64,000 bases of DNA from Lantana camara. Taxonomy: Eukaryota > Streptophyta > Magnoliopsida > Lamiales > Verbenaceae. The notes below the pieces were generated by a model. The model made no database searches. It had not been told where the DNA came from and saw nothing but the letters and a program-made list of their open reading frames with translations. Made by a program: the position numbers and the translations under genes. Location: contig CM074858.1 of NCBI GenBank assembly GCA_037501455.1, forward strand, positions 92,912,501-92,976,500, written 5' to 3'. Within the stretch, counting starts at the first letter, position 1. Every line of letters begins with the position of its first letter. This document shows, piece by piece, positions 18,931 through 60,697 of this stretch.

Positions 18931-18950
18931 AAATATCATTCATAAAGTTC

Positions 18951-19430
18951 ATGAATGAGGGCAAAGGATTGTGGGTCCTGCACACGGATGGTTCCTCAAC
19001 CTCTCAAGGGGGAGGAGCAGGGGTAGCCCTCAGAGACCCTAATGGGATTGAGTTGGACTTTGCAATCAGGTTGGATTTTCAAGTCACGAATAACGAGGCA
19101 GAATATGAAGCCCTTATACAAGGATTAGAAATTGCTTCTCAGAATGGAGCTTCTAGAATTACTGCATATGTGGATTCACAGTTAATTACGAGCCAAATTG
19201 AAGGAACTTATGAGGCTAGAGAAACCACCATGGTGCAGTACTTAAGCAAGGCTCGAGATATTATTGGGAAGTTCAAAGAATTTCATCTGCTTCAAGTCCC
19301 ACGGGCCGAGAACGAGCGCGCTGATGCTCTTTCAAAATTTGCTTCGGCGTTGCAAGGCACTGCTGAGCGCTCGGTGACGTTCCTTAGAACGGAAAAGCCT
19401 CTGATTAAGGAGAATATTGCCAGGCTATGA
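18951..19430 (+). pseudogene. Archaeal-type RNase H copy 2 (unit 2)
   Basis: 159 codons open from the filler-derived ATG at 18951 into GKGLWVLHTDGSS and through YVDSQLITSQI to the shared stop NIARL. It is an intact domain by eye, but it has no promoter or other reason to be translated; its ATG comes from the junction filler. Ala is replaced by Thr in the SQLITSQ block, as in unit 4. Confidence 0.8.
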
Positions 19431-20410
19431 TTGATCCGCTTGAACCATGTTGGCTGGATGACATCATCAGGTTCCTTAGAGATGGTATTTATCCCACGGA
19501 TAAGGTAGAGGCTCGAAAAATAAGAAGCAAAGCCCCTCGATTCTCTTTGGACTCTGAGGAAAGACTGTTCAAGAAGTCATTTCAAGGGCCTCCGTTGAGG
19601 TGTTTAAGGCCCTCGTAGGCGAGAGAAACGCTTAAGCTCATTCACAGTGGGAGCTACGGAAATCACTCGGGAGGGCGTATTCTGGCTAAGAAGATTCTGA
19701 GAAGTGGGTTTTATTGGCCCACGGTTCTGCATGACGCCCTCGAGTTTTCCAGAAAGTGCCCAAAGTGTCAGTTCCATTCCAATCTCCCTCAATTACCGGC
19801 CGCTCAAATGATCCCAATAGATGTTTCCTGGCCCTTTGACCAGTGGGGAATAGACATTGTGGGCCCCTTGCCCATCGCTGTTGGACAAAAGAAGTTTGTC
19901 ATTTTGGCTGTCGATTATTTCACCATATGGGCCGAGGCCGAGGCTGTGGCAAAGATCACCTTCCGGGTTGTGAGGGACTTCATTTGGAAGAACATCATAT
20001 GTAGATACGACATTCCAAGGGTGCTTATTTCTGATAATGGATCCCAGTTCTTAGCCGCTGACACATGAGAGTGGTGTTCGGAATTAGGGATTGAACAACG
20101 CTTTACCTCCGTAGGCCATCCCCAAGCCAATGGACAAGAAGAAGTTACCAACAGAGTCATTTTGCAGCACTTGAAGACGATGCTGGAGAGTAAGAAGAGT
20201 GAGTGGGCAGAAGAGTTGCAAGGGGCGCTTTGGGCTTATCGCACTACTCCACGAGCGGCCATTGGCGAGACACCTTTCGCGCTCGTGTATGGGTCAGAAG
20301 CAATGATACCAGCTGAGATTGCAAATGAATCCGCTCGTGTAGCTTATTTCAAGCCTCAACTTAACGAGAATAACAGAAGCCTGGAATTGCACTTATGGAA
20401 TGATATGTAA
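19427..20410 (+). pseudogene. Integrase copy 2 (unit 2), two stops
   Basis: The frame starting MIDPLEPCWLDD is cut early at 19616-19618 by a TAG unique to this unit (CTCGTAGG where others have CTCGCAGG). It is cut again at the shared TGA after AADT (20066). The downstream integrase segment continues at 20162-20410, ending in filler. Confidence 0.85.
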
Positions 20411-20428
20411 ATATCATTCATAAAGTTC

Positions 20429-21545
20429 ATGAATGAGGGCAAAGGATTGTGGGTCCTGCACACGGATGGTTCCTCAACCTCTCAAGGGGGAGGAGCAGGG
20501 GTAGCCCTCAGAGACCCTAATGGGATTGAGTTGGACTTTGCAATCAGGTTGGATTTTCAAGTCACGAATAACGAGGCAGAATATGAAGCCCTTATACAAG
20601 GATTAGAAATTGCTTCTCAGAATGGAGCTTCTAGAATTACTGCATATGTGGATTCACAGTTAATGCGAGCCAAATTGAAGGAACTTATGAGGCTAGAGAA
20701 ACCACCATGGTGCAGTACTTAAGCAAGGCTCGAGATATTATTGGGAAGTTCAAAGAATTTCATCTGCTTCAAGTCCCACGGGCTGAGAACGAGCGCGCTG
20801 ATGCTCTTTCAAAATTTGCTTCGGCGTTGGAAGGCACTGCTGAGCACTCGGTGACGTTCCTTAGAACGGAAAAGCCTCTGATTAAGGAGAATATTGCCAG
20901 GCTATGATTGATCCACTTGAACCATGTTGGCTGGATGACATCATCAGGTTCTTTAGAGATGGTATTTGTCCCACGGATAAGGTAGAGGCTCGGAAAATAA
21001 GAAGCAAAGCCCCTCGATTCTCTTTGGACTCTGAGGAAAGACTGTTCAAGAAGTCATTTCAAGGACCTCCGTTGAGGTGTTTAAGGCCCTCGCAGGCGAG
21101 AGAAACGCTTGAGCTCATTCAAAGTGGGAGCTACGGAAATCACTCGGGAGGGCGTATTCTGGCTAAGAAGATTCTGAGAAGTGGGTTTTATTGGCCCACG
21201 GTTCTGCATGACGCCCTCGAGTTTTCCAGAAAGTGCCCAAAGTGTCAGTTCCATTCCAATCTCCCTCAATTACCGGCCGCTCAAATGATCCCAATAGATG
21301 TTTCCTGGCCCTTTGACCAGTGGGGAATAGACATTGTGGGCCCCTTGCCCATCGCTGTTGGACAAAAGAAGTTTGTCATTTTGGCTGTCGATTATTTCAC
21401 CATGTGGGCCGAGGCCGAGGCTGTGGCAAAGATCACCTTCCGGGTTGTGAGGGACTTCATTTGGAAGAACATCATATGTAGATACGACATTCCAAGGGTG
21501 CTTATTTCTGATAATGGATCCCAGTTCTTAGCCGCTGACACATGA
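20429..21545 (+). pseudogene. aRNH and integrase copy 3 (unit 3), frameshifted
   Basis: The aRNH frame 20429-20722 is broken by a one-base deletion (TTAATGCGAGCC where unit 1 has TTAATTGCGAGCC). The domain continues out of frame at 20707-20907. The integrase frame 20904-21545 is open up to the shared TGA; its last part lies at 21639-21887. Confidence 0.85.
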
Positions 21546-21905
21546 GAGTGGTGTTCGGAATTAGGGATTGAACAACGCTTTACCTCCGTAGGCCATCCCC
21601 AAGCCAATGGACAAGAAGAAGTTACCAACAGAGTCATTTTGCAGCACTTGAAGACGATGCTGGAGAGTAAGAAGAGTGAGTGGGCAGAAGAGTTGCAAGG
21701 GGCGCTTTGGGCTTATCGCACTACTCCACGAGCGGCCATTGGCGAGACACCTTTCGCGCTCGTGTATGGGTCAGAAGCAATGATACCAGCTGAGATTGCA
21801 AATGAATCCGCTCGTGTAGCTTATTTCAAGCCTCAACTTAACGAGAATAACAGAAGCCTGGAATTGCACTTATGGAATGATATGTAAATATCATTCATAA
21901 AGTTC

Positions 21906-23365
21906 ATGAATGAGGGCAAAGGATTGTGGGTCCTGCACACGGATGGTTCCTCAACCTCTCAAGGGGGAGGAGCAGGGGTAGCCCTCAGAGACCCTAATGG
22001 GATTGAGTTGGACTTTGCAATCAGGTTGGATTTTCAAGTCACGAATAACGAGGCAGAATATGAAGCCCTTATACAAGGATTAGAAATTGCTTCTCAGAAT
22101 GGAGCTTCTAGAATTACTGCATATGTGGATTCACAGTTAATTACGAGCCAAATTGAAGGAACTTATGAGGCTAGAGAAACCACCATGGTGCAGTACTTAA
22201 GCAAGGCTCGAGATATTATTGGGAAGTTCAAAGAATTTCATCTGCTTCAAGTCCCACGGGCCGAGAACGAGCGCGCTGATGCTCTTTCAAAATTTGCTTC
22301 GGCGTTGGAAGGCACTGCTGAGCGCTCGGTGACGTTCCTTAGAACGGAAAAGCCTCTGATTAAGGAGAATATTGCCAGGCTATGATTGATCCGCTTGAAC
22401 CATGTTGGCTGGATGACATCATCAGGTTCCTTAGAGATGGTATTTATCCCACGGATAAGGTAGAGGCTCGAAAAATAAGAAGCAAAGCCCCTCGATTCTC
22501 TTTGGACTCTGAGGAAAGACTGTTCAAGAAGTCATTTCAAGGACCTCCGTTGAGGTGTTTAAGGCCCTCGCAGGCGAGAGAAACGCTTAAGCTCATTCAC
22601 AGTGGGAGCTACGGAAATCACTCGGGAGGGCGTATTCTGGCTAAGAAGATTCTGAGAAGTGGGTTTTATTGGCCCACGGTTCTGCATGACGCCCTCGAGT
22701 TTTCCAGAAAGTGCCCAAAGTGTCAGTTCCATTCCAATCTCCCTCAATTACCGGCCGCTCAAATGATCCCAATAGATGTTTCCTGGCCCTTTGACCAGTG
22801 GGGAATAGACATTGTGGGCCCCTTGCCCATCGCTGTTGGACAAAAGAAGTTTGTCATTTTGGCTGTCGATTATTTCACCATATGGGCCGAGGCCGAGGCT
22901 GTGGCAAAGATCACCTTCCGGGTTGTGAGGGACTTCATTTGGAAGAACATCATATGTAGATACGACATTCCAAGGGTGCTTATTTCTGATAATGGATCCC
23001 AGTTCTTAGCCGCTGACACATGAGAGTGGTGTTCGGAATTAGGGATTGAACAACGCTTTACCTCCGTAGGCCATCCCCAAGCCAATGGACAAGAAGAAGT
23101 TACCAACAGAGTCATTTTGCAGCACTTGAAGACGATGCTGGAGAGTAAGAAGAGTGAGTGGGCAGAAGAGTTGCAAGGGGCGCTTTGGGCTTATCGCACT
23201 ACTCCACGAGCGGCCACTGGCGAGACACCTTTCGCGCTCGTGTATGGGTCAGAAGCAATGATACCAGCTGAGATTGCAAATGAATCCGCTCGTGTAGCTT
23301 ATTTCAAGCCTCAACTTAACGAGAATAACAGAAGCCTGGAATTGCACTTATGGAATGATATGTAA
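21906..23365 (+). pseudogene. aRNH and integrase copy 4 (unit 4)
   Basis: The aRNH frame 21906-22385 (159 codons) is open. The integrase frame 22382-23023 is open to the shared TGA, and the remaining segment lies at 23117-23365. Variants match unit 2 (ITSQI; TTTATCCC; ATATGGGCC) except that its last part carries GCCACTGGCGAG like unit 5. Confidence 0.85.
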
Positions 23366-23383
23366 ATATCATTCATAAAGTTC

Positions 23384-23862
23384 ATGAATGAGGGCAAAGG
23401 ATTGTGGGTCCTGCACACGGATGGTTCCTCAACCTCTCAAGGGGGAGGAGCAGGGGTAGCCCTCAGAGACCCTAATGGGATTGAGTTGGACTTTGCAATC
23501 AGGTTGGATTTTCAAGTCACGAATAACGAGGCAGAATATGAAGCCCTTATACAAGGATTAGAAATTGCTTCTCAGAATGGAGCTTCTAGAATTACTGCAT
23601 ATGTGGATTCACAGTTAATGCGAGCCAAATTGAAGGAACTTATGAGGCTAGAGAAACCACCATGGTGCAGTACTTAAGCAAGGCTCGAGATATTATTGGG
23701 AAGTTCAAAGAATTTCATCTGCTTCAAGTCCCACGGGCTGAGAACGAGCGCGCTGATGCTCTTTCAAAATTTGCTTCGGCGTTGGAAGGCACTGCTGAGC
23801 ACTCGGTGACGTTCCTTAGAACGGAAAAGCCTCTGATTAAGGAGAATATTGCCAGGCTATGA
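23384..23862 (+). pseudogene. Archaeal-type RNase H copy 5 (unit 5), frameshifted
   Basis: It carries the same one-base deletion as unit 3, so the domain is split into 23384-23677 and 23662-23862. The shared defect shows that units 3 and 5 descend from a common duplicated block. Confidence 0.85.
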
Positions 23863-24791
23863 TTGATCCACTTGAACCATGTTGGCTGGATGACATCATC
23901 AGGTTCTTTAGAGATGGTATTTGTCCCACGGATAAGGTTGAGGCTCGGAAAATAAGAAGCAAAGCCCCTCGATTCTCTTTGGACTCTGAGGAAAAACTGT
24001 TCAAGAAGTCATTTCAAGGACCTCCGTTGAGGTGTTTAAGGCCCTCGCAGGCGAGAGAAACGCTTGAGCTCATTCACAGTGGGAGCTACGGAAATCACTC
24101 GGGAGGGCGTATTCTGGCTAAGAAGATTCTGAGAAGTGGGTTTTATTGGCCCACGGTTCTGCATGACGCCCTCGAGTTTTCCAGAAAGTGCCCAAAGTGT
24201 CAGTTCCATTCCAATCTCCCTCAATTGCCGGCCGCTCAAATGATCCCAATAGATGTTTCCTGGCCCTTTGACCAGTGGGGAATAGACATTGTAGGCCCCT
24301 TGCCCATCGCTGTTGGACAAAAGAAGTTTGTCATTTTGGCTGTCGATTATTTCACCAAGTGGGCCGAAGCCGAGGCTGTGGCAAAGATCACCTTCCGGGT
24401 TGTGAGGGACTTCATTTGGAAGAACATCATATGTAGATACGACATTCCAAGGGTGCTTATTTATAATAATGGATCCCAGTTCATAGCCGCTGACACACGA
24501 GAGTGGTGTTCGGAATTAGGGATTGAACAACGCTTTACCTCCGTAGGCCATCCCCAAGCCAATGGACAAGCAGAAGTTACCAACAAAGTCATTTTGCAGC
24601 ACTTGAAGACGATGCTGAAGAGTAAGAAGAGTGAGTGGGCAGAAGAGTTGCAAGGGGCACTTTGGGCTTATCGCACTACTCCACGAGCGGCCACTGGCGA
24701 GACACCTTTCGCGCTCGTGTATGGGTCAGAATCAATGAGACCAGCTGAGATTGCAAATGAATCCGCTCGTGTAGCTTATTTCGAGCCTTAA
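23859..24791 (+). CDS. Tat-A integrase, longest copy (unit 5)
   Basis: This 310-codon frame contains the zinc-binding part (HSGSYGNHSGG, then KCPKCQFHS), the catalytic blocks WGIDIVGPLP and NNGSQFIAADTR, and GHPQANGQAEVTN. It lacks the TGA of the other copies. One notable change is in the second acidic block: ISDNGSQF of the relatives reads IYNNGSQF here, so the second catalytic aspartate is replaced by asparagine. The frame ends with VAYFEP and a TAA. The C-terminal region continues at 24819-25112 in another frame. It is the only copy connected to the C-terminal domain. Confidence 0.88.
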   Translation: MIDPLEPCWLDDIIRFFRDGICPTDKVEARKIRSKAPRFSLDSEEKLFKKSFQGPPLRCLRPSQARETLELIHSGSYGNHSGGRILAKKILRSGFYWPTVLHDALEFSRKCPKCQFHSNLPQLPAAQMIPIDVSWPFDQWGIDIVGPLPIAVGQKKFVILAVDYFTKWAEAEAVAKITFRVVRDFIWKNIICRYDIPRVLIYNNGSQFIAADTREWCSELGIEQRFTSVGHPQANGQAEVTNKVILQHLKTMLKSKKSEWAEELQGALWAYRTTPRAATGETPFALVYGSESMRPAEIANESARVAYFEP

Positions 24792-24818
24792 CTTAACGAG
24801 AATAACAGAAGCCTGGAA

Positions 24819-25112
24819 TTGGACTTATTGGATGAAAAAAGAAACCAAGCTTGGGCCAAGATACACAAATATAAGGCAAATGTGGCTCAACAGTACAACA
24901 AGCGTGTGAGGGAAAGAGCCTTCCAATTGGGAGATTTGGTCCTGAAGAAAGTCGAAGTATCCAAACATGTGGGGAAGATGGACCCCAACTGGGAAGGTCC
25001 GTTCAAGGTGATACAAATCAGAGCTAACAACACCTACGCTCTGGAAACGCTTCAAGGTGAGCGCTTGCCTCGCCCCTGGAACGCATGTAATCTCCGACGG
25101 TTTTATGTGTAG
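24819..25112 (+). pseudogene. Tat-A integrase C-terminal domain
   Basis: 97 codons contain AFQLGDLVLKKVE, NWEGPFKVIQI and the terminal PRPWNACNLRRFYV, the conserved end of pol in this group. It is out of frame with the catalytic domain upstream (stop at 24789). Tat-B has the same blocks at 41393-41480 and Tat-C at 3115-3300. Confidence 0.87.
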
Positions 25113-33390: not shown

Positions 33391-34945
33391 TGTAATACTC
33401 CACTCATCCGACCGTACATGTATGATGTCATGAGCGAGTTTAATTACATAATTATGTAATTTAATTGTATCTTTATTAATTTAATTGCTTTAATTGTTTG
33501 TAATTGTGTGACTAATTCTCGAATTATATGAATATTCATGATTTTCAATGAATTAAACATGACCAATTTGAAATGACATGTTTTCCTTGTTTATGTGTCC
33601 TTAATTGCAGCTTGTTTGAGGTATTGAGATTTAATTGAAAATGAACTTTGGATTAATTTGACATTTTTTAAAAGTTTAGGAGTCTAAATTTAATTAGGTC
33701 ATTTTTAGCCACTTACTAAAATGAATTTTTCGATTTCGACTTTGCATTTGGACTCGGGACATCAAACCGAATCCAATGACTGTGACCTTGTATGTTTCTA
33801 AGCCCGTTCGTTTTATTCGTACTTTAACACCAGTTAGCGTGGATTGGTTATTACACAAAATAGATAAGAAAATATCTTATTTTTTCTCCTAGTCCTTGAC
33901 CGATCACCATGCCTCCCATTCCTATTCTCACTTTTTCTTCATCTTCTTCAACCGGTCTCTCTCTCTCTCTCTCTCCAGCAAAGGCAAGCTTCAAGGTTTC
34001 CCCAGTTCAAACTCAAATATTCATCTTTCTACGTCCTTTAATCCTTCAAGATATGAAATATGTTCTTCTACTTCTTCTCCTCTTTATTTTGAGATTCTTT
34101 TCTTGGGATTTAAATGTGTATATGAGCTGCCGTGTCTGAGGTTCTTGAAAATTAGTATTTAGGTTATAATAAATGATATTAGATATCTCTTATGTTTTCA
34201 ATATGAAACTTATTGCATTAATTTTTGGTTTGAGGAGTTGGGTAGTTGGAGTTATTAAGACCTCCGTTCATGGAGGTTAAATCTTTGGTAGTTTTAGAGT
34301 GTTAAACATGTTTTGTTGACCCTAATATGGCATATGAGTGTTATATGATCATTCGCAAGCTTTTAGATATGTTGTTGTTGTCTTTGGAGGGGTGACATAG
34401 CCACTCCGTGGTCATTTTCTTTGAACTCCCTATTTTCTGACGCATCTTGAACGTCCCACGGCTCAAAAAACTTTTGAACTATTTTGTCTCATGGCTGTGG
34501 GGCATAGGGGGCAGACATTCTATTTTGGTCCCCATGGCAAGGGAACTTCTGAACTAATTTGTTCCCAGACCTTGGGACTTTGCGGGAAGACTTTCTATCA
34601 ACGTCCCACAGCCTTGCGGGGAGACTTTCTATCAACGACCCACGGCTGTGGACGTCGCTTTTATTTTTCTTTTCAGGTCGGGGTCTTACTTTCCTTCATT
34701 CCTTGTTTGAACTTTAACCTCGTTTTTTTGCTTTTCTTTTCATATGTTCCTAGTGTGTCATACTATGTTTGTATGTATTTGAATGATCTTGTATGCTACC
34801 GTATGATTCCAATTTCATATTAAAGGTGCTCGAATGTTCTTTTATGGCATAATCACACATCATAATATCGTAAATTACGATCATTGCATGCATACTATTC
34901 ATAAGTATCATCGTGCACCTTTTCATTCATATTAGAGTCTAAGTC
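33391..34945 (+). mobile_element. LTR-like element L3, 3'-truncated
   Basis: It starts TGTAATACTCC, and the next words (CCGACCGTACATGTATGATG) match the start of L4 (TCGACCGTACAGGTATGACG). Homology with L4 can be followed to about 34945 (GAGTCTAAGTC, matching 51074-51084). The 3' terminus is missing. It contains the motif array at 34451-34657. No coding capacity. Confidence 0.65.
34451..34657. repeat. Dyad motif array of L3 (TCCCA..TGGGA type)
   Basis: Six related motifs lie at 34451, 34486, 34528, 34561, 34601 and 34635. The clearest is GTTCCCAGACCTTGGGAC at 34561-34578. Others read GTCCCACGGCT and GACCCACGGCTGTGG. The array follows CCCTATTTTCTGACG, which resembles the GCCCTGTTTT anchor of the other copies. 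It lies 1.06-1.27 kb from the 5' terminus. Confidence 0.75.
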
Positions 34946-47818: not shown

Positions 47819-48175
47819 AAAAAATTTTGGTACTATCCAAAGATTGCCCTTAACTTTTAAGTTTTAACGGATGATTTGTCGCCATTAATTGGTGCGTTGG
47901 ATTCGAAAAAGGAAAATTTAATTGCCGACTTCCGTAAGCAATTGGAGATCTAATTACCTGACATAATGATGACATGCATTTCTTTTGGCCTTTTGGGAAA
48001 TTTATTTGGAGATCTAATGCACATGTATGCCGTTTGAGGACATATTGTTGGAGTATGTGCGAAGTTGTATTTCATTTGATTTATAATTCTTTTTGTTATA
48101 TTCCGCAAACATAAAATTGTTCATTGCGTGAGAACCAGTAAAAACAAATATATGGATTGTGATTATCTGATACCA

Positions 48176-48272
48176 TAAAAGGAAATCTTTTATTAAGGCG
48201 GAAATCACATATAAAATTTATAAAATTTAAATCATATGGTAAGATCATATCAAAAACTTTTATACTGTACAT
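48176..48272 (-). pseudogene. EPRV-A movement protein, N-terminal stub
   Basis: The ATG at 48272 and the following ~32 codons correspond to the start of the movement protein at 53663. Homology ends at 48176, right after TGGTATCAGA on the minus strand, a string resembling the tRNA-Met primer-binding site of pararetroviruses. Beyond it the sequence is unrelated, so this is the left end of the viral insert. Confidence 0.75.
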
Positions 48273-48914
48273 GGGTAATTTTACAAAACTAAAACAGGTT
48301 AGAGATTTAGTTCTGAACCAGTCATGGAGGTAAGCCCTAAGAACGCCTAAAACATAGCAACAGAGTGGATGAATCTAGACTTCGGTATTAAACCTAATCT
48401 CTGCTTATTTTAACTCTAACCATCCCAGAAATAAAAATTTTCGATCTGGAACTTTTTTTTTTTTTTTTAAATAAAATCCCGCCATGAACATTGATTTTAG
48501 TAACATGATATTATTCAACACAATAAGATTTAGCCGGCCATATTTGGCGACGAAATAAAACAGATATAAAATTAAGAACTTGGAAAGTAAATTGACTTAC
48601 TTATTCTGTGTCGCACACCAGTCTTGCAAGATTGCAAAATTTTCTTACTCGAATATTAAAAGTGTTTACAAACTGGAATTGAAAGTACAAATACTTGGTA
48701 TTTTTCGCTCTGCCTAATGCAAAGCTAAACTGTCCTATAAATAGGCAGAAATCGGATTTGAAATCCGGAACTGAAATCTAATCTAAACTATTTGCTCTAT
48801 TATGAATGAGCACTATACAGTTTTATTAAAACAACGACAAACAAACAGTGGGTACTTTATTAAAGTAAAAGATCCCTTCCAAAAGTGGAAATAGTTGGTG
48901 GGGTAGTTAGCATA
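48273..48914 (-). promoter_or_regulatory. EPRV-A intergenic region with TATA-like element
   Basis: Non-coding stretch between ORF2 and the movement protein ORF, with a palindromic CCTATAAATAGG at 48734-48745 that would serve as a TATA box about 470 bases before the movement protein ATG. It is highly similar to 53664-54308. A T-run (48450-48468) and a purine-rich tract are shared with EPRV-B. Confidence 0.65.
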
Positions 48915-49611
48915 TCATCCTTTCAGGACCCCATCTTGTCTTTTCCTTCTTTATTCAAATATTTTTGAATAACCTGATCAATATCTTCAAATATTTCCTC
49001 ATAAGGATTTTGTGCCTCACCAGCTGGACAATAATCTTCATTGGATAATGTATCCATTAAAACACTTGATTGTGATTCGTAGTTGAGATTTTTCATCAAA
49101 TCTTTCTTTACTTCCTTTAGTTAGGAAGCTACTTTTTCTTCATCAGTAACTTGTCATTTTTGGAAATATAATTTCTTTGAAATATATTCAAATGAACTTG
49201 GAGATTTATTCTGTTCTTCTAGAATTGTATATTCATCAATCTTCCTTTTGATATTATCAATAGCTTCTTGCCCTTCAATGCTTCCTTCTTTATTAATTTG
49301 CATCATTTTCCTCCAGAACTTTGTATAAAAAGTCCTAAAGATACATGGTATCTTTTGTTGAGTTTCTCCCAACTCTGGTTCCCATTTCCGAATCCATAGA
49401 ATACCAAATTCTGTGAAAAAATGTAAAGAAGACATTCCTTCTATCCACCTTCCATTATTTTGTGCTTCGATAATTTTTAGAGAAATATCTACCCATTGGG
49501 AATATAATTCCTGAAAAGTGCTCGGCAAAATTTTTGCTGTAGCACCAAAACTAAGCCACCATTGGTATAACCAATTTGGAATGTCCTTGTTATAAACATT
49601 CGGACAGATTT
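48915..49611 (-). pseudogene. EPRV-A ORF2, 3' part
   Basis: Protein of unknown function. The frame 49528-49154 is open. In-frame stops at about 49155 and 49133, not shared by EPRV-B, break the C-terminal part, which ends at 48915. The upstream part of the gene lies at 52400-52830, beyond the LTR-like insert L4. No catalytic motif is seen; the C-terminus is acidic with a lysine-rich end. Confidence 0.75.
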
Positions 49612-52399
49612 TGTGACACCCCGACTTATCGACCGTACAGGTATGACGTATTTGCGCAATTAAAATTATTATTTGTGTATTTTATATTTATTTAATGGTT
49701 TATTTTTTTATTATGTGAATTTGTTTATGTGCTCGTTTCTTGTTTTCGATGTCGTTTGTTGTGGTTTCGAAGTGCTTGGACCGTTTTGGACCTAAAGGAG
49801 GCTAAAAGGTATTTAGCACACCTTGGGTTCCGGTAAGCATATTTTGAGCTCGGGAATTCGGATTCGAATTCCGTCACTTCCGTTGGACTCGTTTCGACGA
49901 TTCGGAGCCAATGGAACCAACCTTATGTTTTTCCAAACCCATTTGATATTCCAAAATTCGACCGAAAGTTCATCTCGCGCCTAAATGACCACCTTGGAGG
50001 AAATTGCACATAAGTCCCTCAATTCTTGACCAATTAACCTCAAACTTGGACCCACATGACCCCAACTCAATACCCTACCATCCCTATCTCCTTCATTTCG
50101 TTCCACACCAAGAGAGAAAGAGGAATTTTCTGCTCAAAACCGAGTTCAAGGAGGAAGCAATCTTGACACTATTCATTTTCACTTTTTGAGCTCAATCCCT
50201 CACCAAATCTCTTCATTCTTGAAAGGTAAGCTTGGAATTAGAATTCTCCTCCTTCTCTTATTTGTTTTGTTTTCTTATTTGCTGAATTTGATGGTTGTAA
50301 GAGCATGATTGGATCATATATGTAAATAGTGTAGGTTTTGGTTATTTGATAAATTTTGAGTGATCTCTTGGAGTTTTGTTGGAAGCTTTGCATCTTTCTT
50401 GGTCCTAAGACGATCATATGTATATGTATGAGCTGAGTTTTGCACGAGAAGCTAGGATTCCTTGGTTTTCATTTTGGGTTTTTGAAGTTTTTGGTGAAAT
50501 ATGAACTTGGGTGTATTTCTTGCATTGATTCTTCATTTATCTTCATACTTAGGCTTAGAGATTCCATGAATTTGATGTTTTCTTGTTGTATTTTCATCCT
50601 AATATGTGTTATGTGGAGTTGGGATTTGATTAATGTTGGTTTGGGGTGAAATTTTGGCCTGAAACGAGTGTTTGCCCTGTTCTCGCCCAGCAGTGGAGGT
50701 CGCGACCGTTTTCGCTACAGATTTGGTCGAGGTCGCGACCACCTGGATTTTTCTCTACGATTTGCTGGTAGAGACCTCGACCAGTTTGTGTGCAAATCTG
50801 GTAGAGACCTCGACCCCCTTTTTTTTTCGGTTGTTTTTTTTCGGGTTTTGCGTGCGTTTCTTTGCTTCATATGGTTCATTTAATATTCAAAGAATATGTA
50901 CACTTGTTATTTGAGGTTTTAAGCTTTGTGCTATGAATTATGCTTATTTTATGCTTCTATTTTTGATGAATTTTCCGTATTTGTCTTGTATGCCCTCATA
51001 TGACTTAAGTATGCATTCATTTTATTTCATTTGCATGCATGAGCATTGCCGGGCGTCTAATTGGTACATTATTGAGTCTAAGTCTCGGGTCTTGTCTTCT
51101 TTTGTTTCAGAGCCTCTTCCGGAAGTTCGTGAGCCCGAGGTTTAGGTGCTTGTTCGCCCGTTTGCCTTCCTTTTCCACTACTTTTGTAAAGGTGAGGCTA
51201 GGATCTTTTATATTAGATAAGCGACCTAAGACCTATTACATGTTGTTTTCTTACCCCGTATGCGATTATATACCTTATGCATATATATATTAAATACGAG
51301 TGCTTAAGCTATGTTATGATTTTGTGAAATGAGCTTTAAGTTTCGAAATTGGTATAAGTATTGGCATAAGTAAGCTATGTTTTGAAATTCGTTATTTGTT
51401 TATGATATGTTTGAGCGAGTTGTACCCTGAAAGATGGGAGTTTGGTTTGATTTAGTTTGTTGGGCCCGGAGACGTGGGTAAGGGAGACCCGGGACGACCA
51501 CGGGGTCGCCGGTTATGACCCCTGTGCACGTTCTCATTTGAGATATTCACGTACGACCTATGGAGGTTGGGAAGGCATGGTATCTTGAGCCCTCGGTGGA
51601 TAACCGGGGAAGGCATATTGTGGGTTAGCTGCCCCGTATGTGTTTGGTAATGTAGGTGTTAGGGTTTGATTCCCGATACACCATGGATGTGAGGTTGGAA
51701 ATTGTGATTTGAATTCGATTTTATGTTATGTTTAATGGAGTAAGGGATAGTCCGTTCTCGCCGGACTTATGTTTATGTTATGTTCGATAGATTATGGATC
51801 GAGATAGGTTTTCCTTTATACTATATGTTATCTTTGGAAATGATTTGATATGTAAAACCCTAGCCTCGATTCATGACTATCACCTTTGTAATATGCTTTG
51901 CTCTATATTTAGGTGTGGGTGTGCGTTTAGCCCCCTCACTCAGTCGAGTTTTGACTGACCCCTCTCCTTTCCCACCTTCAGTGCAGGTTGTTTCGAGCTA
52001 GGCGGGGAAGTGCGAGTTTTAGTCTTGTACTTGTGTGTCTAGGTTGAGTTGCATTCATACTTCTTACATTTTGGATACTCCTTTTATGTATTTGAGATCA
52101 TGACTTGTCTTTTGGAGAATTATGGGCTTTTGATGTATATATACTCGATCTTTTGGGCCGTGAGGCCATTGTATATGATGTAAATGTTATTTATAGAGCT
52201 CTTTTCGATCCTTATGTTATTGCTTCCGCATTAATATGTTTGTTTGGCGCGCTCTGTCAGAGTCTTAGCCCCGCTTAGCCTAAGGAGTGAGTGTAGGTTC
52301 TGTTCGCTTAGACTTGGACTCATGTATGGAAATCCATTTCATATGTGGGTTCGGGTTTAGGTGCGGGGGATGTGGTGGCCCACCGCTCTGGGCGTCACA
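49612..52399 (+). mobile_element. LTR-like element L4 (solo LTR candidate, 2.8 kb)
   Basis: The ends are TGTGACACCCCG and GGGCGTCACA. The interrupted viral sequence supplies the empty site: GATTT flanks the insert on both sides (49607-49611 and 52400-52404), a 5-bp target duplication. TG...CA ends plus 5-bp duplication and no internal genes indicate a solo LTR. The long LTR fits a chromovirus of the Tekay/Del type by general appearance, which is only a guess. Internal features are AGGTAAGC at 50224 and a dyad motif array at 50695-50815. ORFs at 50440-51293 overlap each other and match nothing known. Confidence 0.85.
50695..50815. repeat. Dyad motif array of L4 (GGTCGCGACC / GGTaGAGacCTCgACC)
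   Basis: Motifs lie at 50695-50707, 50725-50740, 50767-50782 and 50800-50815. The first two contain the perfect palindrome GGTCGCGACC. The last two are identical to each other and read GGTAGAGACCTCGACC. The array follows TTGCCCTGTTCTCG (50672-50685). Confidence 0.85.
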
Positions 52400-52830
52400 G
52401 ATTTTGAAAAACCATGAATGCTTATGAAGCTCATTTTGATAAAGAAAAGCTTTATTAAATGCTTCAACATAATCCAAATAATTAAACTTTATTTTTACTT
52501 GGGAATTTTGGAGACTATATTCTCTTTCTCTAAGGGTACTTATTCCCCATTCTTCAGCAGATATTATTTGCTTAATACTAGCTTTACTAAAGCTATAAAC
52601 TTTAGTCTGTCTTCCTGCATAGAAGTGATCAAATTCGCAAGATCCTGTCACTTTGAGTATATTCTCAAAATGAGTTCGCTGTTTATATGAACCAGCAGTA
52701 AAAGATGCAGTATCCAAGTACCTTTGCATGAGATGCCAAATATTATCTTTCCATCTCAAATCTTTATTTTCTAAGAGTAATATTAACTCTTTATGAGGAT
52801 TTTGCTCATAAAGTAAATCAACCGATTCAA
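52400..52830 (-). pseudogene. EPRV-A ORF2, 5' part at deletion joint
   Basis: The frame from 52759 leftwards matches ORF2 of EPRV-B at 60084-60310. It starts not at an ORF2 start codon but at a deletion joint near 52830, where movement protein sequence meets ORF2 sequence. The ORF runs on past 52400 into the insert, so its last residues are not viral. Confidence 0.78.
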
Positions 52831-53663
52831 TTTAATAGATCTTCGAGTAGTAATCTCAGATCTACTAAAATTACTTTCTATAAGAATAGTCTCATCTGAT
52901 GGTTTATCAACCATCTTACATCTAGGATTTAAAGTTTGATGAGGTTTGTAATAAATTCTATAACAAACACATATAACTTCAGAACCAGGAGCATAATTAT
53001 AACCATGCGTTTTTATATTTAAGGTTAAAGCATCCAAAATATTACCATCAGATAAAGATAATTGTAGATTAGGATAAACATTAAATAGACTGGACCATGT
53101 GCTAGGCTAGATTGTATAATACCTATCAAGGATTGTTTCCAGATAAGATTTCTACCATCTCTGAGAGCAGCTATAAAACTCTCAGGTAAACCTTCCAAAG
53201 TTAAAGGTTTAAATGCAACTTGAACTAATCCAATATGAATAAATTTATAAATACCTCTATATTTATTGAAATCTCTATTATTAAGCAATTTAATAATCAT
53301 TTCATCTTTATTAAGAGAAATTGTTTCTTCTGTAGTTTTAACTACATGCTTAAAACATAATCTATCAAAAGTTCCAAATTTATAAATAACAGTGAGATCT
53401 ATTTTGGGAATAGTCCATTTATTCAGTAAATCAAGATTTTGAGGAATATCATATTTCTCTTCAATACTGTTTTTAACAGTATCTCTATTTCTAAAGATAT
53501 TCATTGAATAAAGATTGTGTTGAATACTACCAGAAATTGAAATCAATACCCATGACTTTGATACCATAAAAGGGGATCTTTTATTAAGGCGGAAATCACA
53601 TATAAAATTTATAAAATTTAATTCATTTGGTGAGACCATATCAAAAACTTTTATACTATACAT
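52831..53663 (-). pseudogene. Pararetroviral movement protein (between EPRV-B and EPRV-A)
   Basis: The ATG at 53663 opens 212 codons (to 53025). Features typical of the 30K-like movement protein family of Caulimoviridae are visible, including the hydrophobic core and a conserved block near residues 145-190. A frameshift near 53060 moves the C-terminal part to the frame 53037-52783. The downstream coat protein, protease and RT regions are missing; sequence jumps to ORF2 at 52830. The protein would have enlarged plasmodesmata for cell-to-cell spread. Confidence 0.8.
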
Positions 53664-54308
53664 GGGTAATTTTACAAAATTAAAACAGGCTAGAGATTTA
53701 GTTCTAAACCAGTCATGGAGGCAAGGCCTAAGAACGCCTAAAACATAGCAACAGAGTGGGCGAATCCAAACTTCGGTATTAAACCTAATCTCTGCTTATT
53801 TTAACTCGAACCATCCCTGAAATAAAAATTTTCGATCTGGTACTTTTTTTTTTTTTCTTTTTAATAAAATCTCGCCGTGAACATTGATTTCAGTAACATG
53901 ATATTATTCAACACAATAAGATTTAGCCGGCCATATTAGGCGACGAAATAAAACAGATATAAAATTAAGAACTTGGAAAGTAAATTGACGTACTTATTCG
54001 GTGTCGCACACCAGTCTTGCAAGATTGCAAAATTTTCTCACTCGAATATTAAAAGTGTTTACAAACTGGAATTGAAAGTACAAATACTTGGTATTTTTCA
54101 CTCTGCCTAATGCAAAGCTAAATTGTCCTATAAATAGGCGGAAAATCGGATTTGAAATCCGGAACTGAAATCTGATCTAAACTATTTGCTCTATTATGAA
54201 TGAGAACTATACAGTTTTATTAAATCAACGGCAAACAAACAGCGGGTACTTTATTAAAGTAAAAGATTCCTTCCAAAAGTGGAAATAGTTGGTGGGGTAG
54301 TTGGCATA
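53664..54308 (-). promoter_or_regulatory. EPRV-B intergenic region with TATA-like element
   Basis: It lies between ORF2 (ends 54309) and the movement protein ATG (53663). It carries CCTATAAATAGG at 54127-54138. It aligns throughout with 48273-48914, differing at scattered positions. Confidence 0.65.
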
Positions 54309-54855
54309 TCATCCTTTCAGGACCCCATCTTGTCTTTTTCCTTTTTTATTCAAATATTTTTGAATAACCTGATCAATATCTTCAAATATTTCCTCATAAG
54401 GATTTTGTGCCTCACCAGCTGGACAATAATCTTCATTGGATAATGTATCCAGTGAAACACTTGATTGTGATTCGTAGTTGAGATTTTTCATCAAATCTTT
54501 CTTTACTTCCTTTAGATAGGAAGCTACTTTTTCTTCATCAGTAACTTGTCCTTTTTGGAAATATAATTTCTTTGAAATATATTCAAATGGACTTGGAGAT
54601 TTATTCTGTTTTTCCAGAATTGTATATTAATCAATCTTCTTTTTGATATTATCTATAGTTTCTTGCCCTTCAATGCTCCCTTCTTTATTAATTTACATCA
54701 TTTTCCTCCAGAACTTTGTATAAAAAGTCCTAAAGATACATGGTATCTTTTGTTGAGTTTCTCCCAACTCTGGTTCCCATTTCCAAATCCATGGAATACC
54801 AAATTCTGTGAAAAAATGTAAAGAAGACATTCCTTCTATCCACCTTCCATTATTT
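54309..54855 (-). pseudogene. EPRV-B ORF2, 3' part
   Basis: The last 61 codons are open (54494-54309). Stops occur at about 54696 and 54629, at positions where EPRV-A has sense codons. The gene continues upstream beyond L6 at 55011. Confidence 0.75.
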
Positions 54856-55010
54856 TGTAGCACCCGAGCGCAAGGTACCACATCCCCCACACCGAGACCT
54901 GTAATATAAAATAAAATAAAATACTTGATAACGTAATTAAAATAAATTAAATGCGCACGTAATTATCACATAAGCCATACCTGTACGACTTGAAAAGTCG
55001 GGGTGTTACA
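54856..55010 (-). mobile_element. Short LTR-like element L6 (155 bp)
   Basis: It starts TGTAGCACCCGAG and ends CGGGGTGTTACA, flanked by TATTT (54851-54855 and 55011-55015). The uninterrupted sequence in EPRV-A (49448-49470) confirms the empty site. The left 45 bp are the complement of the 3' end of L5, and the right 35 bp the complement of the 5' ends of L4/L5. It is therefore the same family in reverse orientation with almost all the interior missing. Confidence 0.88.
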
Positions 55011-55344
55011 TATTTTGTGCTTCGATAATTTTTGGAGAAATATCTACCCATTGGGCATATTATTCCAGAAAAATGCTTGGGAAAATGTTTGCGGTAGGAC
55101 CAAAACTAAGCCACCATTGGTATAACCAATTTGGAATGTCCTTGTTATAAACATTCGGACAGATTTTGAAAAACCATGAATGCTTATGAAGCTTATTTTG
55201 ATAAAGAAAAGCTTTATTAAATGCTTCAACATAATCCCAATAATTAAACTTTATTTTTACTTGGGAATTTTGGAGACTATATTCTCTTTCTCTAAGGGTA
55301 CTTATTCCCCATTCTTCAGCAGATATTATTTGCTTAATAATAGC
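55011..55344 (-). pseudogene. EPRV-B ORF2, middle part
   Basis: This stretch matches 49448-49611 plus 52400-52580 of EPRV-A, now bounded by L6 and L5. The homologous frame is present with small changes. Confidence 0.75.
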
Positions 55345-55608
55345 TCTAACGCCCCAACTTTTTCGTAATTTAGAATGATGTATGTGTTTACTAATTTGCG
55401 CGAATTAATTGGCTATAAGTGTTTTCTATATTTAAATTTCGTTATTTAATTGTTAATTATGTGATTAATTGAGATATATGAAATATTTGAATTGGAATTG
55501 ATACGAATACTTGAACCACTCGCGCATGAATAATTTGTGTGCTCCCTAATTACGCGTTTAAATTATTTAATTGCCTAATTAATCGTTTATGATAATTACT
55601 GTTGACAC

Positions 55609-56363
55609 CATAGTTGTTAAAGGCGAGAGGCGAGGGGCGGGCGAGGGGTGTATTTTCAAGGCGAAAGGCGAGGCGAGAGGCGGGCGGTAAAAAGGCGAAC
55701 GAGGCGATAAATAAAAAAGAATATTAAAATATATATATAATGCAGTAATAATACAAAAAAAACTTATTATAAATGATAAATTCAGTTCTTTTCCCTCAGA
55801 TAAGTGTTCAATGTTCATTTAAACTAAAATAACATTCTAAGATTGTAACTATCTTTGCCAGTAGCGTCTAGAAGCAACTGCCAGCAGTGGTATAATGGTA
55901 GCAGTGGTGTTCCTCATTTTTTTTACAGATTCTAGGGTTTTTTACTTCCATGTGTTAAACCTTTTATTTAGTTTTAAGTTTAGTATTTAACCTTAAAATA
56001 GGCCCAAAAGTGGTATTTTCATAGTTTCAAAAGCCCATGTATTTTTACGTTTAAAAAACCCTAAGAAAAGATGAGATTAAGTTTAGTATTTAACCTTAAA
56101 ATAGGCCCAAAAGTGGTATTTTCATAGTTTCAAAAAGCCCATGTATTTTACGTTTAAAAAACCCTAAGAAAAGATGAGATTTCTCTCATATGGAGGAGAG
56201 GCGCGCTTGAGGCGCGCCTGAGAAGAAGGCGAAAGGCGACAGAGGCGGATGAAGGCGAGCGCCTTTTCTACATCGCCTCGCCTGACCCCCACTGAGGCGA
56301 TGAGGCTGCGCCTCTCGCCTGAGGCGCCTCAGGCGAGAGAGGCGCTCGCCTTTAACAACTATG
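55609..56363. mobile_element. Non-autonomous hAT-like element in L5
   Basis: The perfect inverted ends CATAGTTGTTAAAGGCG and CGCCTTTAACAACTATG are flanked by the exact 8-bp duplication GTTGACAC (55601-55608 and 56364-56371). The subterminal regions are packed with GGCGAGG/GCCTCGCC words in opposite orientations at the two ends. The interior is non-coding and includes a 103-bp duplication (55974-56180). Confidence 0.92.
55974..56180. repeat. 103-bp tandem duplication inside the hAT element
   Basis: Units 55974-56076 and 56077-56180 begin TTAAGTTTAGTATTTAACC and are almost identical, differing by one-base length changes in A and T runs. Confidence 0.92.
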
Positions 56364-58180
56364 GTTGACACCGAAAATTCAAAAATAAATTATTAATTAG
56401 TGGCCCAAATAAATCGGCTATTAATTATTAATTTTTATCGTGAGTCCATAATAAATTTGGGCTTAAATATTTAATTTGGGATAAGAATTATGGGCTTATA
56501 TTCTTATTCTTAAATTAATTAAATGGATTAAAAAATGATCCATTAAAATAAAATAAAGCCCGCTTCTTCATCGTGTGGACTTTAAATTCAGGCCCAAGCC
56601 CATGAAGCCCAAAGGAAGAACCGAAGGCCTATAAATAAAGGCTCCAGGGCTACAAGTTGACATAACATCAAGTCACAAATCACATTACAAATCATAAGTC
56701 ACAAGTTCTCAAGAGCAAAGGCATTCAAGCTCTCAAATCTTCGAGCCATTGCCACTTGCTATCTCGAAGTGTTGTCCGTGCAACGAGCCACACTTCCAAG
56801 CAAATTTAACCAAGTTCTTCGTTTGATTCGAGATCAAGCATCAAGCCCTCGAATCCACTATTCGAGAAGAATCAGAGGATATTCAGAGATTGTAACACTT
56901 TTTACATTAAATCATTAAATTCTTTGTTTTCCCTATTTTCGTATTTCTTGTAATCATTTATTGCAGATTCCAACGAAAATTTGTGTAAACAATTACAATT
57001 TGTATTTTTTAATTAATCTTTTAATAATATGTATTTCGTTATATTTTTAATAAATATTTAAAATGGATTCTTAAATTTCATTTTAGTTTTGAAATTATAT
57101 GAATTCTTGAACGATATGCTTTTACGTGACAAGTTGCGTGCCGTTACTATATGAAATGAATTCGAAATTTTGTGGAAATTTACTATGTTGGAATTATTTG
57201 TGTTATGAATATGAATATATGTTCGTTTTATGTTTTTGGATTCATTTGCATGAGTTATGAATTTATTTTGATTTTGGAATCCAAAACGGGGGCTAACGAG
57301 CAATTAGCGCACCATTGGTTCCTTATTTGATATCTTGAGCTCGGCAATTCGGAATCGAGTTCCGTCACCTCCATTGGACTCGTATCGACGATTCAGATCC
57401 GATGGAACAAACCTCATATTTTTCTAAGACCATTTGGATTCCCAAATTCCAACCGAAACGAGCACTTTGTACCTAAAACGATAACCATTTACTTTTCTTA
57501 AAGCTACGGACCTACCCTAATGCACCTAAGACCTAAACCTTGACTAATATACACCTAGACCCACTCATTTTTCTCCCTCATCAGCCCATAACCGAACCAC
57601 TCTCACCCCACAACCTAAAAGTTCATCCAAAAGAAGAAGAAGAAAAGAAAAGGAGAAAGAAGAGGATCACTATTCAAAACCTTGGAGATTTGAGCTCATC
57701 TCCCTACCATTTCTCACCATCTCTTGAAGGTAAGTTTATATTTGTGTAGGATATCTCCTTATGGTTCTTTTAAGTCTTATATTATATGATTTCACCAAGT
57801 TTTGATTGGGGTATGATGAAGATGATGAATAGTGAAGGGTTATTGCATTTTGATGAATTAACTTGGTTCTCTTTGGTTTTCTTTGATACTCATGAGTGTT
57901 AGGTGATCACAAGACATGTATTTATGATTGTATGGACTTATTTTACTTGGTAGTTGAGGATTTATTGGATTGCCATTAATGGAGCTTGAAGAATGGTTAT
58001 GGTGTTTGAATCTTTGTTGCTTTCTTGGAGCTTTTGGTGTTTAAGTGTGATCAAGCATGTATGTATGAGTTTATAGCATGAAATTGTATGCTTTTGGTCA
58101 AGTTTTGAGTTGGTTACATGCATCCATACCTTTCCCTTTCGTACTTGCCCTGTTGCTGAGTTTTTTTAGCTACTGAGTCA

Positions 58181-58271
58181 AATCCATGGGGGTGGATTTG
58201 AGTCAGTGGGTGTCTGACCAGAATCCATGGGGGTGGATTTTTCCCTTTGGAAAAATCCATGGGGGTGGATT
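58181..58271. repeat. Dyad motif array of L5 (AATCCA..TGGATT)
   Basis: AATCCATGGGGGTGGATT occurs identically at 58181-58198, 58222-58239 and 58254-58271. TTGCCCTGTTGCTGAG (58145-58160) precedes it, the same anchor as L4. A T-rich stretch follows, as in L4. Confidence 0.88.
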
Positions 58272-60083
58272 CTGCCCTGCCAATTTTTGTTACTCCGATT
58301 TTGTTTTTTCTTGTTTTTCTTCGCTTGTTTGATCTTCCTCCACCTCTTTTATGACTTCTATGCAATACTAACATGTATTATCTTGGGTGTTATGAAATTT
58401 TATGATTTTTCGTGGAATATTTTACGAGTTATGCCTCAATATGTCTTCCTTGCTCCAATATGGTACATGCATGCATTGATACTTCATGTTTGAACCCCAA
58501 ATGATGTTGTGCTTCTTTTAATGATTGATATGAAGTGTTTACATGTTATACTACGTGTGATGATCATTATTTGAATTTCTTAGATTTATGTGGTATAGAA
58601 ATGAAAGTCATGAACTCATATGGATATGAATGTTTCTTGAAAGGAATGAATGGCTTGTATACATGTCTTTAAGACATTAATTGTGCACAAGAATGTTTCT
58701 ATGACATGCTATCATATCTTATACTTTCATATCGTATTCATTGCATTGTCGTGCGTCATATATGGTTCATTTGGAGTCTTGAGTCTTACGTGTACCTTCT
58801 ATTGTCCTTTGTACAGTTTTCTCCAGGGCGGAGACTTGCCGAGTTCTTAGGACACTTCCGAGTCCTCTTGTTTCTTCTTAGTGTTGGTTGGTAAGCTAAG
58901 GACAGGTGGGTTTCTCTACTATTTAGTTAAACAACCCTATATACTTTCAATGTGCAAAGATTTCGACCAAACATTAATATATGTATATAGAGTCGTTTCA
59001 AGAGTAAATGTTTGTAACGTAAAGCCCTTATTTTATGAACCCTACCAAATGTTTTGGCGAGAATGAATGAATGATTGCATAGAATGGGGCCCAGGGACTT
59101 GGTGTGAGTGGCTATCCGGGGAGGCATGGGCCGACGGTGATCCCTCACACTAGTTCCAACTAATGAACGGTGTAACCGGACTTTGTTAGGAGTTAGCGAG
59201 GAATGGACGCTAAGTGCCATCTGGGGAGTCATGTTCCCCTTTTGGTCAATGAATGGGTGGTCGGGCCTTGCAAACCCACCACCAACCCGGAGGAAGAAGG
59301 TGTAAATGTTCATGAATGTGCACGAAAGAATGTAATGTATGAAAGAAAGAAAGAACGAATGAATGTTTAATGAACTACACAAGGTATTGGTTGGAGATAA
59401 TGCACGCCTACTCGCCGGGCCACGAAAGACCTAAAGAATGAAAATGAATGTTATAATCCCTTTTGATTGATTCTTTCTCTCGCCCACTTGGGAAATACTT
59501 CGAAAACCTCACTTGGGATTATAACTTGCATGTGAATGTTTAAATACCGTCTTATACTATACTTATGCCTCATTTTATACCCACCAATCTCCTATAGACT
59601 GAACCCGGTTTGTTTTCAGTTTTCTTGCAGGTTTGGAGTGCTAGGCGGGAAGTCGAGTTTGTTAACTCTTTCGGTCAAGTCAAAGTCTGTTCTTATACAT
59701 AGTGTATCATGATTTGTTTAAATTATGAAGAATATATGATTTGTATTGATTATTGCTACCATCATGAATTCTGAATAAGCTTATAGGAACAGAAAGAATC
59801 TGTAATTGATGTTTTATGATTTTATTAAATTTCGGGATTAGGTATCCATGTTAGTTGAACCCGTTACTATTTGCTACCCTTGTTATTTATGAATGTACTT
59901 TACTTCCGCACCAGAATTATTTCTATTGTAATGTTTCTTTGGTTGCGAAAGTTAGCTCCCGCCTAGCTTAGCGAGTGTGTGTGTCCCCGTTCGCCGTGAT
60001 TTAGCTCGGGTATGGATTGTCCATTTCATATTCGGGTCGGGTCTCGGTGCGGGGGATGTGGTACCTTGCGCTCGGGTGCTACA

Positions 60084-60574
60084 ATAGCTTTACTAAAGCT
60101 ATAAACTTTAGTCTGTCTTCCTGTATAGAAGTGATCAAATTCGCAAGATCCTGTCACTTTGAGTATATTCTCAAAATGAGTTCGCTGTTTATATGAACCA
60201 ACAGAAAAAGATGCAGTATCCAAGCACCTTTGCATGAGATGCCAAATATTATCTTTCCATCTCAAATCTTTATTTTTTAAGAGTAATATTAACACTTTAT
60301 GAGGATTTTTCTCATAAAGTAAATCAACCGATTCAATTTCTTCATCCCCTACTATATTAGCATAGGGTGGAGCATTTTGAGTATTACTCTCTTGTCTAGC
60401 TTTATATTCCAAAAATTCCTTGTATAAAGGATCATCCATTCGTGTATTACTTGAGGATGATGATAAAATATTCGCTATATTTTCAGCTATTAGCTTCTGG
60501 TTACCAAATTGAGCAATACTTCTCCCACCTCTTCCTCTATTTGAAGAATTTCTACCTCCTCCTTGAGGTCGCAT
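60084..60574 (-). CDS. EPRV-B ORF2, 5' part (function unknown)
   Basis: The ATG at 60574 starts a Gly/Arg/Asn-rich N-terminus, then a region of mixed charge that matches the ORF2 fragment of EPRV-A. The frame is open down to the L5 insertion; codons after 60084 are not viral. Upstream, the polyprotein ends at about 60595 (LKKLIA then stop), leaving a short gap, which fits a two-ORF arrangement. Without a recognised domain, the basic N-terminus only suggests nucleic-acid binding. Confidence 0.75.
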
Positions 60575-60697
60575 CCTGAAATACCAATAAATTTAAGCTA
60601 TTAGCTTTTTTAATTTTTCTTTTACAGCTATAAGTTGTTTTTTATCCTCTTCAATATAATAATCGAGGCCATGGTTTTCATTTACATAAAGACATAA
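60575..60697 (-). pseudogene. EPRV-B polyprotein C-terminal end
   Basis: An open stretch on the minus strand ends at a stop near 60593, just before ORF2. It is separated from the rest of the polyprotein (62630-63480) by L7. Confidence 0.65.

Follow-up and report, generated by a model that had tools for sequence, protein, structure and literature searches.

How can a short palindromic motif be nearly uniform within one long terminal repeat (LTR) and have quite different arms in the next? The question is raised by five LTR loci, L1 to L5, all within a single window, the whole 64-kb stretch of DNA analysed, which by its content appears to be plant DNA and contains several solo or partial LTRs. 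The first-pass annotation had read the five as copies of one LTR family, each with its own dyad-symmetric array at a corresponding internal place.

The LTR nature of the loci is confirmed. L4 (49612–52399, forward strand) is a complete solo LTR, TGTGACACC...GGCGTCACA, with the 5-bp duplication GATTT at 49607–49611 and 52400–52404; the host sequence has a second copy, in which the empty site is present from 55160 onward. L5 (55345–60083, forward strand) is also a complete solo LTR, TCTAACGCCCC...GTGCTACA, with the duplication ATAGC at 55340–55344 and 60084–60088, and at its site the other host copy reads through with one base different. TG...CA ends together with a 5-bp target-site duplication are thus present in full in L4 and, with TC replacing TG, in L5. 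A single LTR end is visible in each of the other three. L1 (1–1240, reverse strand) is the 5′ part of an LTR that starts at 1240 with an exact TGTAACGCCCCA (1229–1240), the rest lying beyond the window edge. L2 (1241–2639, reverse strand) is a partial LTR with a TGTAACGCCCCA start at 2639, and it stops where L1 starts, abutting the L1 start. L3 (33391–35000, forward strand) is a decayed LTR that begins with TGTAATACTCC; its end coordinate is nominal, the right end was not located, and the search for its likely duplication gave no candidate.

L4, L5 and a further LTR-like insertion, L6 (60698–62629, forward strand; TTTAACACCC...GGCGTGACA; imperfect duplication CATAA/CATTA), appear to have inserted into a pararetrovirus-like host sequence. 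Within this host, an ORF on the reverse strand (53025–53663) matches a viral movement protein family (PF01107, E 2.3e-6). Sequence related to the movement-protein host lies at 48168–49613, 52397–52833, 53559–55348, 60085–60690 and from 62630 on, two host copies are 95.6% identical in a 1300-column block, and the host sequence round the ORF looks like pieces of an endogenous pararetrovirus. A 155-bp piece at 54856–55010 (reverse strand) has LTR-like ends on both sides, the left one 97.8% identical to the L5 end (45 bp), and probably represents an LTR with an internal deletion and no array. Inside the L5 LTR, the stretch 55590–56370 resembles a foldback or MITE-like insertion: its ends are inverted, and it has palindromes of the GGCGAGGCG type as well as a tandem duplicate of 103 bp; one or more nested insertions are suspected in L5 between about 55.6 and 57.0 kb.

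The loci are several separate families by sequence comparison, and not copies of one. L1 and L2 share 68.0% identity in 807 columns, and their alignment ends at the array. L4 and L5 share 62.5% in 891 columns and 74.4% in 129 columns at the 3′ end, and L3 and L4 share 68.6% in the first 118 columns only. Between the L1–L2 group and the L3–L4–L5 group, the L2–L5 matches are short and weak (50 columns, E 1.4e-4; 106 columns, E 0.001), and beyond these the two groups have in common only similar LTR starts and an anchor motif. The single family of the earlier reading does not survive this comparison. All five are solo or partial LTRs with no internal part attached. By their LTR start we suspect them to be Ty3/gypsy chromoviruses of the Tekay/Del-like type. 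Gypsy genes are found in 10 of the 16 scanned ORFs of at least 200 aa, and none of them adjoins the L1–L5 LTRs; a chromodomain is absent from the domain matches of these 16 ORFs. One gypsy pol ORF (15376–17952, forward strand) has an additional RVT_3 domain (E 1.4e-19), presumably as in Tat/Retand elements. Further on, a unit of about 1478 bp, repeated in tandem about five times (17478–24835; 98–99% identity), lies in a gypsy pol region with integrase domains; the repeats reflect either a recent amplification or an assembly effect.

The confirmed boxes, those of L1, L2, L4 and L5, are tandem, even-centred, imperfect palindromes of about 16–20 bp. The L1 array (98–310, reverse strand) has five strong boxes of the form GTGACAC-GGGC/GGGG-GTGTCAC, with 18-mers at 98, 132, 181, 215 and 292, and a sixth, weak box near 266. 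The L2 array (1625–1750, reverse strand) has four boxes of the type CCAAAC-GCCC-GTTTGG in the sense direction, the one at 1625 being degenerate. In the L4 array (50691–50816, forward strand) the scan finds TGGTCGAGGTCGCGACCA, a pair of TGGTAGAGACCTCGACC(A/C) boxes and one weaker box, with GGTCGCGACC; counted by eye, the first box is nearer to the other two when these are reverse-complemented (2 versus 4 mismatches). The L5 array (58170–58275, forward strand) has three identical 18-mers, AATCCAT-GGGG-GTGGATT. In its predicted fold, box 1 lies within a longer hairpin, and boxes 2 and 3 form one larger inverted pair that includes their flanks. The claimed array of L3 consists of degenerate short repeats (34451–34657, forward strand), of which those at 34491 and 34642 match the core described below. 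The 18-mer identity within arrays is 0.79–1.00 (0.61 in L3), in agreement with the near-uniformity within each copy that had been claimed.

These arrays stand out from the rest of the window. A blind scan for recurring imperfect palindromes was run in 260-bp windows (step 20) at six settings, each with 1968 dinucleotide-shuffled windows, and at most the best 10 windows were listed per setting. With 18-mers, L1 reaches 5 boxes and L2, L4 and L5 reach 3 each in the 64 kb; the sole other real window at 3 lies at 40.6 kb and is an ordinary tandem repeat of 87 bp, and of the 1968 shuffles three reach 2 and none reaches 3. The 20-mers give 5 for L1 and 3 for L2, L4, L5 and the tandem repeat, with 1/1968 shuffles reaching 2. 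The 16-mers give L1 5, L2 4 and L4 3, followed by a palindromic stretch near 56.2 kb with 2, a number that 1/1968 shuffles reaches. With 14-mers the counts are 5, 4 and 3 for L1, L2 and L4 and 2 for three other windows (3/1968 shuffles reach 2). At the loosest setting L1, L2 and L4 are on top (5, 4, 4) and L5, with 3, is level with five other real windows, while 2/1968 shuffles reach 3. With odd-centred 17-mers there is no array among the matches listed, and two other windows reach 3. Counted by setting, L1, L2 and L4 are among the matches listed in five of six and L5 in three of six; L3 is absent from all six (best 10 windows per setting). The insertion L6 is a negative case, with no array in the mismatch-tolerant scans and no core match. 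The mismatch-tolerant scans replaced an exact-arm dyad scan, in which L1 (5) and L5 (3) led, L2 (2) was level with eight windows, and L3 and L4 fell outside the best 20 windows; L6 showed two recurrent short dyads in it, equalled by 4 of 738 shuffled windows.

Arm symmetry against shuffled controls, a check proposed with the first reading, was also run on the five loci as a count of single dyads of at least 7 bp with 300 shuffles per array. The result is strong for L1 (6 dyads, shuffled mean 0.39) and L4 (4, mean 0.21), counts reached by 0.000 of the shuffles. It is weak for L5 (2, mean 0.34; 0.053 reach it) and L2 (1, mean 0.14; 0.137 reach it), and in L3 there are 0 dyads against a shuffled mean of 0.23, so its symmetry is not above that of shuffles. 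Among 16–22-mers with 6 of 7 outer pairs, the stretch 34440–34670 of L3 has none but one A/T-rich centre, which matches as a 17-mer and as a 19-mer. Of the five dyad arrays claimed, then, four hold, with the blind 18-mer scan placing them at the top of the 64 kb, and the first reading overstated L3 as an equal fifth case. One might suppose that unrelated short repeats in AT-rich LTRs have simply been read as a pattern. The failure of L3, the weakness of L2 and L5 in the single-dyad count and the presence of L5 in only three of six settings among the matches listed are in keeping with such a coincidence, but the blind scans with their shuffles, the shared centres and the anchor at L1, L2, L4 and L5 make it very improbable.

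The position of the arrays is similar, as had been claimed. The array start is about 890–1090 bp into the LTR in L1–L4 and further in L5, because of the suspected insertions there. On the 5′ side of the array, the anchor TGCCCTGTT is found at 1765–1773 in L2 (reverse strand), 50673–50681 in L4 and 58146–58154 in L5 (both forward strand), and its CCCTGTT part occurs twice at L1 (326–332 and 338–344, reverse strand). At L3 there is no exact copy of CCCTGTT. The array begins within about 10–27 bp after CCCTGTT in L1, L2, L4 and L5, and these sites make up 5 of the 14 occurrences of CCCTGTT in the window. With up to one mismatch, TGCCCTGTT shows no overall enrichment in the window (8 seen, 14.66 expected). 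The persistence of box clusters next to one anchor suggests selection.

The boxes also share a centre. The pattern AYGGSNGT, picked after the arrays had been seen, is common to L1, L2 (where it is reversed relative to the element) and L5, and it occurs in two L3 boxes as well. The box centres read ACGGGCGT, ACGGGGGT and ATGGGGGT, and in L4 GAGGTCGC/GAGACCTC. Mean identity of the central 8 bp is 0.90 for L1–L2, 0.80 for L1–L5 and 0.72 for L2–L5. Three L3 boxes, picked by core likeness, give 0.58–0.66 against L1, L2 and L5, while L4 gives 0.29–0.39 against all others, and its centre is really different. The outer ten arm bases (five per arm) are 0.08–0.28 identical among L1, L2 and L5 and 0.13–0.40 in the remaining seven locus pairs, compared with 0.33 for random pairs. 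The first description of the arms as unrelated between copies has to be corrected: in L1, L2 and L5 the outer arms resemble each other no more than random pairs do, while remaining complementary, but the central 8 bp of these three are alike. The comparison of within-copy and between-copy identity that the earlier reading had proposed gives, on the five loci, 0.79–1.00 within copies (L3 0.61) and 0.08–0.40 between copies for the outer arms. With L3 failing in symmetry and L4 having another centre, the five loci have no box feature common to all of them.

To assess the centre, each array's centre was relabelled with symmetry and internal variation kept (20000 draws). The likeness of the best triple (L1, L2, L5) is reached in 0.0001 of the draws and the total of the four blind-found arrays in 0.00085, and pairs with L4 are unremarkable in this null (0.34–0.56). 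AYGGSNGT has 13 matches in the five arrays (900 bp; L1 5, L2 3, L3 2, L5 3, L4 0) versus 14 in the other 63.1 kb. Flanks with at least four of five complementary positions accompany 10 of the 13 matches inside the arrays and 0 of the 14 outside.

The two arms of a box change together. The covariation set contains 14 boxes, 13 of them distinct (L1 5, L2 4, L3 2, L5 3), including one L2 box that is one base off the core pattern and omitting L4, the weak box of L1 and the remaining repeats of L3. In this set 86.5% of the cells are paired versus 60.3 with shuffled partners, 31 cells show double changes versus 11.8, and the covariation score is 0.688 versus 0.239, with slid versions not exceeding 0.269. 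Six pairs have a double change, an ordinary number that 218 of 500 shuffles match, and the 16 further pair types are only mildly high (25 of 500 shuffles). As symmetry helped to pick the boxes, the covariation is a description and no independent proof. Within L1, the box at 292 carries a paired G-C to A-T change. Since the centre is shared, the favoured origin for L1, L2 and L5 is divergence from one box type, with the arms changing in pairs. The claim that ordinary divergence could not give the pattern accordingly stands for the arms, where paired change is needed, but not for the centre. Such paired arm change needs either template switching or selection on pairing.

Template switching is described, in the available parts of the two reports, as creating and fixing stems (PMC8794818) and as homogenizing arms and inverting spacers (PMC8604942). 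The paired change in L1, the reversed first box of L4 and the reversed centre of L2 fit these reported marks. By neutral mutation alone, an ancestral inverted repeat could stay symmetric, with template switching copying arm onto arm and tandem slippage homogenizing the boxes, all without function. The free look of the arm sequences, the L1 change and the folding of L5 boxes 2 and 3 with their flanks as one inverted pair all accord with it. It does not predict the like centre in L1, L2 and L5, when the L5 body matches those of the other two only shortly and weakly, nor that four of the five LTRs carry their box cluster 3′ of one and the same anchor; moreover, the spacer inversions in yeast required arms above 9 bp, as far as the available part of that source goes (PMC8604942), and most arms here are shorter. 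We regard this main rival as somewhat unlikely.

The symmetric form may be used at the RNA or the DNA level. A 5′ splice-site-like AAG|GTAAGC lies upstream of the L4 array (50223–50231, forward strand) and a counterpart, AAG|GTAAGT, in L5 (57727–57735, forward strand), both found by motif scan. These donor-like sites come after a conserved stretch, and acceptor-like TTTTGTTTCAG and TTTGTACAG are downstream. We infer from these motifs that in L4 and L5 the array sits inside a predicted leader intron (50226–51110 in L4, 57730–58816 in L5), 3′ of a predicted first exon. With up to one mismatch, neither L2 and L3 nor the surroundings of the L1 array have such a donor-like site. Predicted folding z values for the sense and antisense strands are −4.3 and −8.7 for L1, −2.6 and −0.9 for L2 (its antisense folding is ordinary), −2.6 and −4.0 for L3, −4.5 and −4.2 for L4, and −4.6 and −7.1 for L5. 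When the sense strand of the LTRs is scanned (L5 from 57000 on), L1, L2, L3 and L5 have their lowest z at the array, and in L4 the array is the third-lowest window. When G-U pairs are allowed, the shares of 300 shuffles that reach the hairpin counts (sense/antisense) are 0.083/0.017 for L1, 0.033/0.000 for L2, 0.337/0.493 for L3, 0.007/0.010 for L4 and 0.070/0.073 for L5. There is no consistent strand preference in these counts among the five arrays. Rfam models give 0 matches at gathering thresholds in the whole window.

At the DNA level, the arrays might be enhancer-like sites that bind a dimeric host factor, with families switching factor through the arms. The dyad symmetry, a box width near 18 bp, the tandem copies and the finding of arrays only with even centres agree with this second rival, and cis-regulatory regions of transposons are often arrays of repeats, sometimes palindromic, in the available text of PMC10760457. 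However, a factor should hold the arm sequence, and in these boxes it is the centre that is kept while the arms vary freely; the arrays would lie 3′ of the predicted first exon. We consider enhancer-like sites unlikely.

Several known systems resemble these arrays. Tnt1-like elements have variable U3 regions, with related subfamilies carrying unlike regulatory repeats, and similar palindromes occur in LTR-rich sequence of cotton and hop relatives. The closest known system is the palindromic repeated motifs of Sirevirus LTRs; the boxes here may work like these, an analogy drawn apart from membership. The available text of Bousios et al. (2010, PMC2829016) describes, in LTRs of these Ty1/copia elements, clustered palindromic repeated motif boxes of putative function, commonly over 85% identical within an element and differing between elements round a common CGG-CCG centre, with Tnd-1 as the one exception. 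Like these, L1, L2, L4 and L5 (not L3) have tandem palindromic boxes uniform within the element, and box numbers per LTR overlap, 3–14 in Sireviruses (Table 3 of the same text) and 3–6 here. Unlike these, the present boxes lack the CGG-CCG centre; and the Sirevirus clusters, in that text, lie upstream of the TATA box and begin 200–400 bp into the LTR, whereas the present arrays lie about 0.9–1.1 kb in, apparently 3′ of a first exon. The L4 array is still in the upper half of its LTR, as are most Sirevirus boxes so described. Sirevirus boxes further bound a CpG island, and the elements have a copia-type pol and multiple polypurine tracts. In the available parts of PMC10760457 and PMC5311732 the Sirevirus boxes are later cited as rapidly evolving small-RNA hotspots. 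The former also reports, in its available part, that maize LTR elements of the Ty3 type show no clear peak in hairpin-like structure; if L1–L5 are Ty3 elements, the box pattern is therefore not general among them.

VANDAL elements, as far as the available text of PMC5735166 goes, offer a second comparison. Their VANC-bound arrays are likewise short tandem motifs in non-coding parts, with quick gain and loss between related elements. The arrayed copies of the VANC motif YAGTATTAY share a single orientation, and the string 'palindrom' is absent from that text, whereas the boxes here are palindromic; and VANDAL elements encode their binding protein, whereas no coding part is attached to these LTRs. 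In sugar beet, palindromic motifs adjoin a minisatellite and are not within an LTR, according to the available part of PMC2820488. A literature search found no such LTR arrays outside Sireviruses in titles and abstract openings among the matches listed, with subscription literature mostly uncovered, and among the matches listed for the motif strings in literature text only one string was met, in unrelated contexts. In non-plant collections, which say little about plant LTRs, motif-pair patterns gave 0 matches in viral and genome contigs, as did one 20-mer of the L5 body against viral contigs and L4 against plasmids.

Taken by themselves, symmetry and free arm sequence point to structure (hairpin or cruciform) or to arm-onto-arm copying; the conservation of centre, place and anchor speaks for a cis-element that has been kept. 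The best explanation, whose chances we put at about even, combines the two: a palindromic box cluster has been kept, its boxes multiplied by local duplication and its arms rewritten in pairs by template switching. On this reading the LTRs come from several plant LTR-retrotransposon families, and each carries one box cluster just 3′ of CCCTGTT (not at L3). Each box is an 18–20-bp quasi-palindrome with an AYGGSNGT centre in either direction (L4 differs) and with arms that are sequence-free yet complementary. This fits descent from a single ancestral type of box whose core has been conserved, local duplication both multiplying and homogenizing boxes within copies. Template switching between arms, in reverse transcription or replication, may rewrite both together and can flip the centre. 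The cluster would then be a cis-acting retrotransposon element, its symmetry kept by selection, and the symmetric form may act as a hairpin in the leader RNA or, at the DNA level, as a cruciform or a dimer site.

If this kept-cluster explanation is right, the boxes here would be a second set beside those of Sireviruses, which are suspected of acting as control elements and also of triggering small-RNA silencing. Such a set would show which features have to stay (centre, symmetry and position) and which are free to change (the arms). Boxes with paired arms would also be a clean test case for template switching versus selection in keeping LTR hairpins symmetric. A bolder form, which we hold to be improbable, is an element defined by symmetry and not by sequence, with a fixed centre and any complementary arms, in which leader-intron hairpins are selected and template switching rewrites the arms family by family, with escape from small RNAs. 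For an LTR to retain an intron 3′ of its start site, the RNA that was copied must have been unspliced. Were this symmetry-defined reading true, the hairpins might hold back splicing of the genomic RNA, and the rewriting of arms would let each family escape the small RNAs raised from its predecessor.
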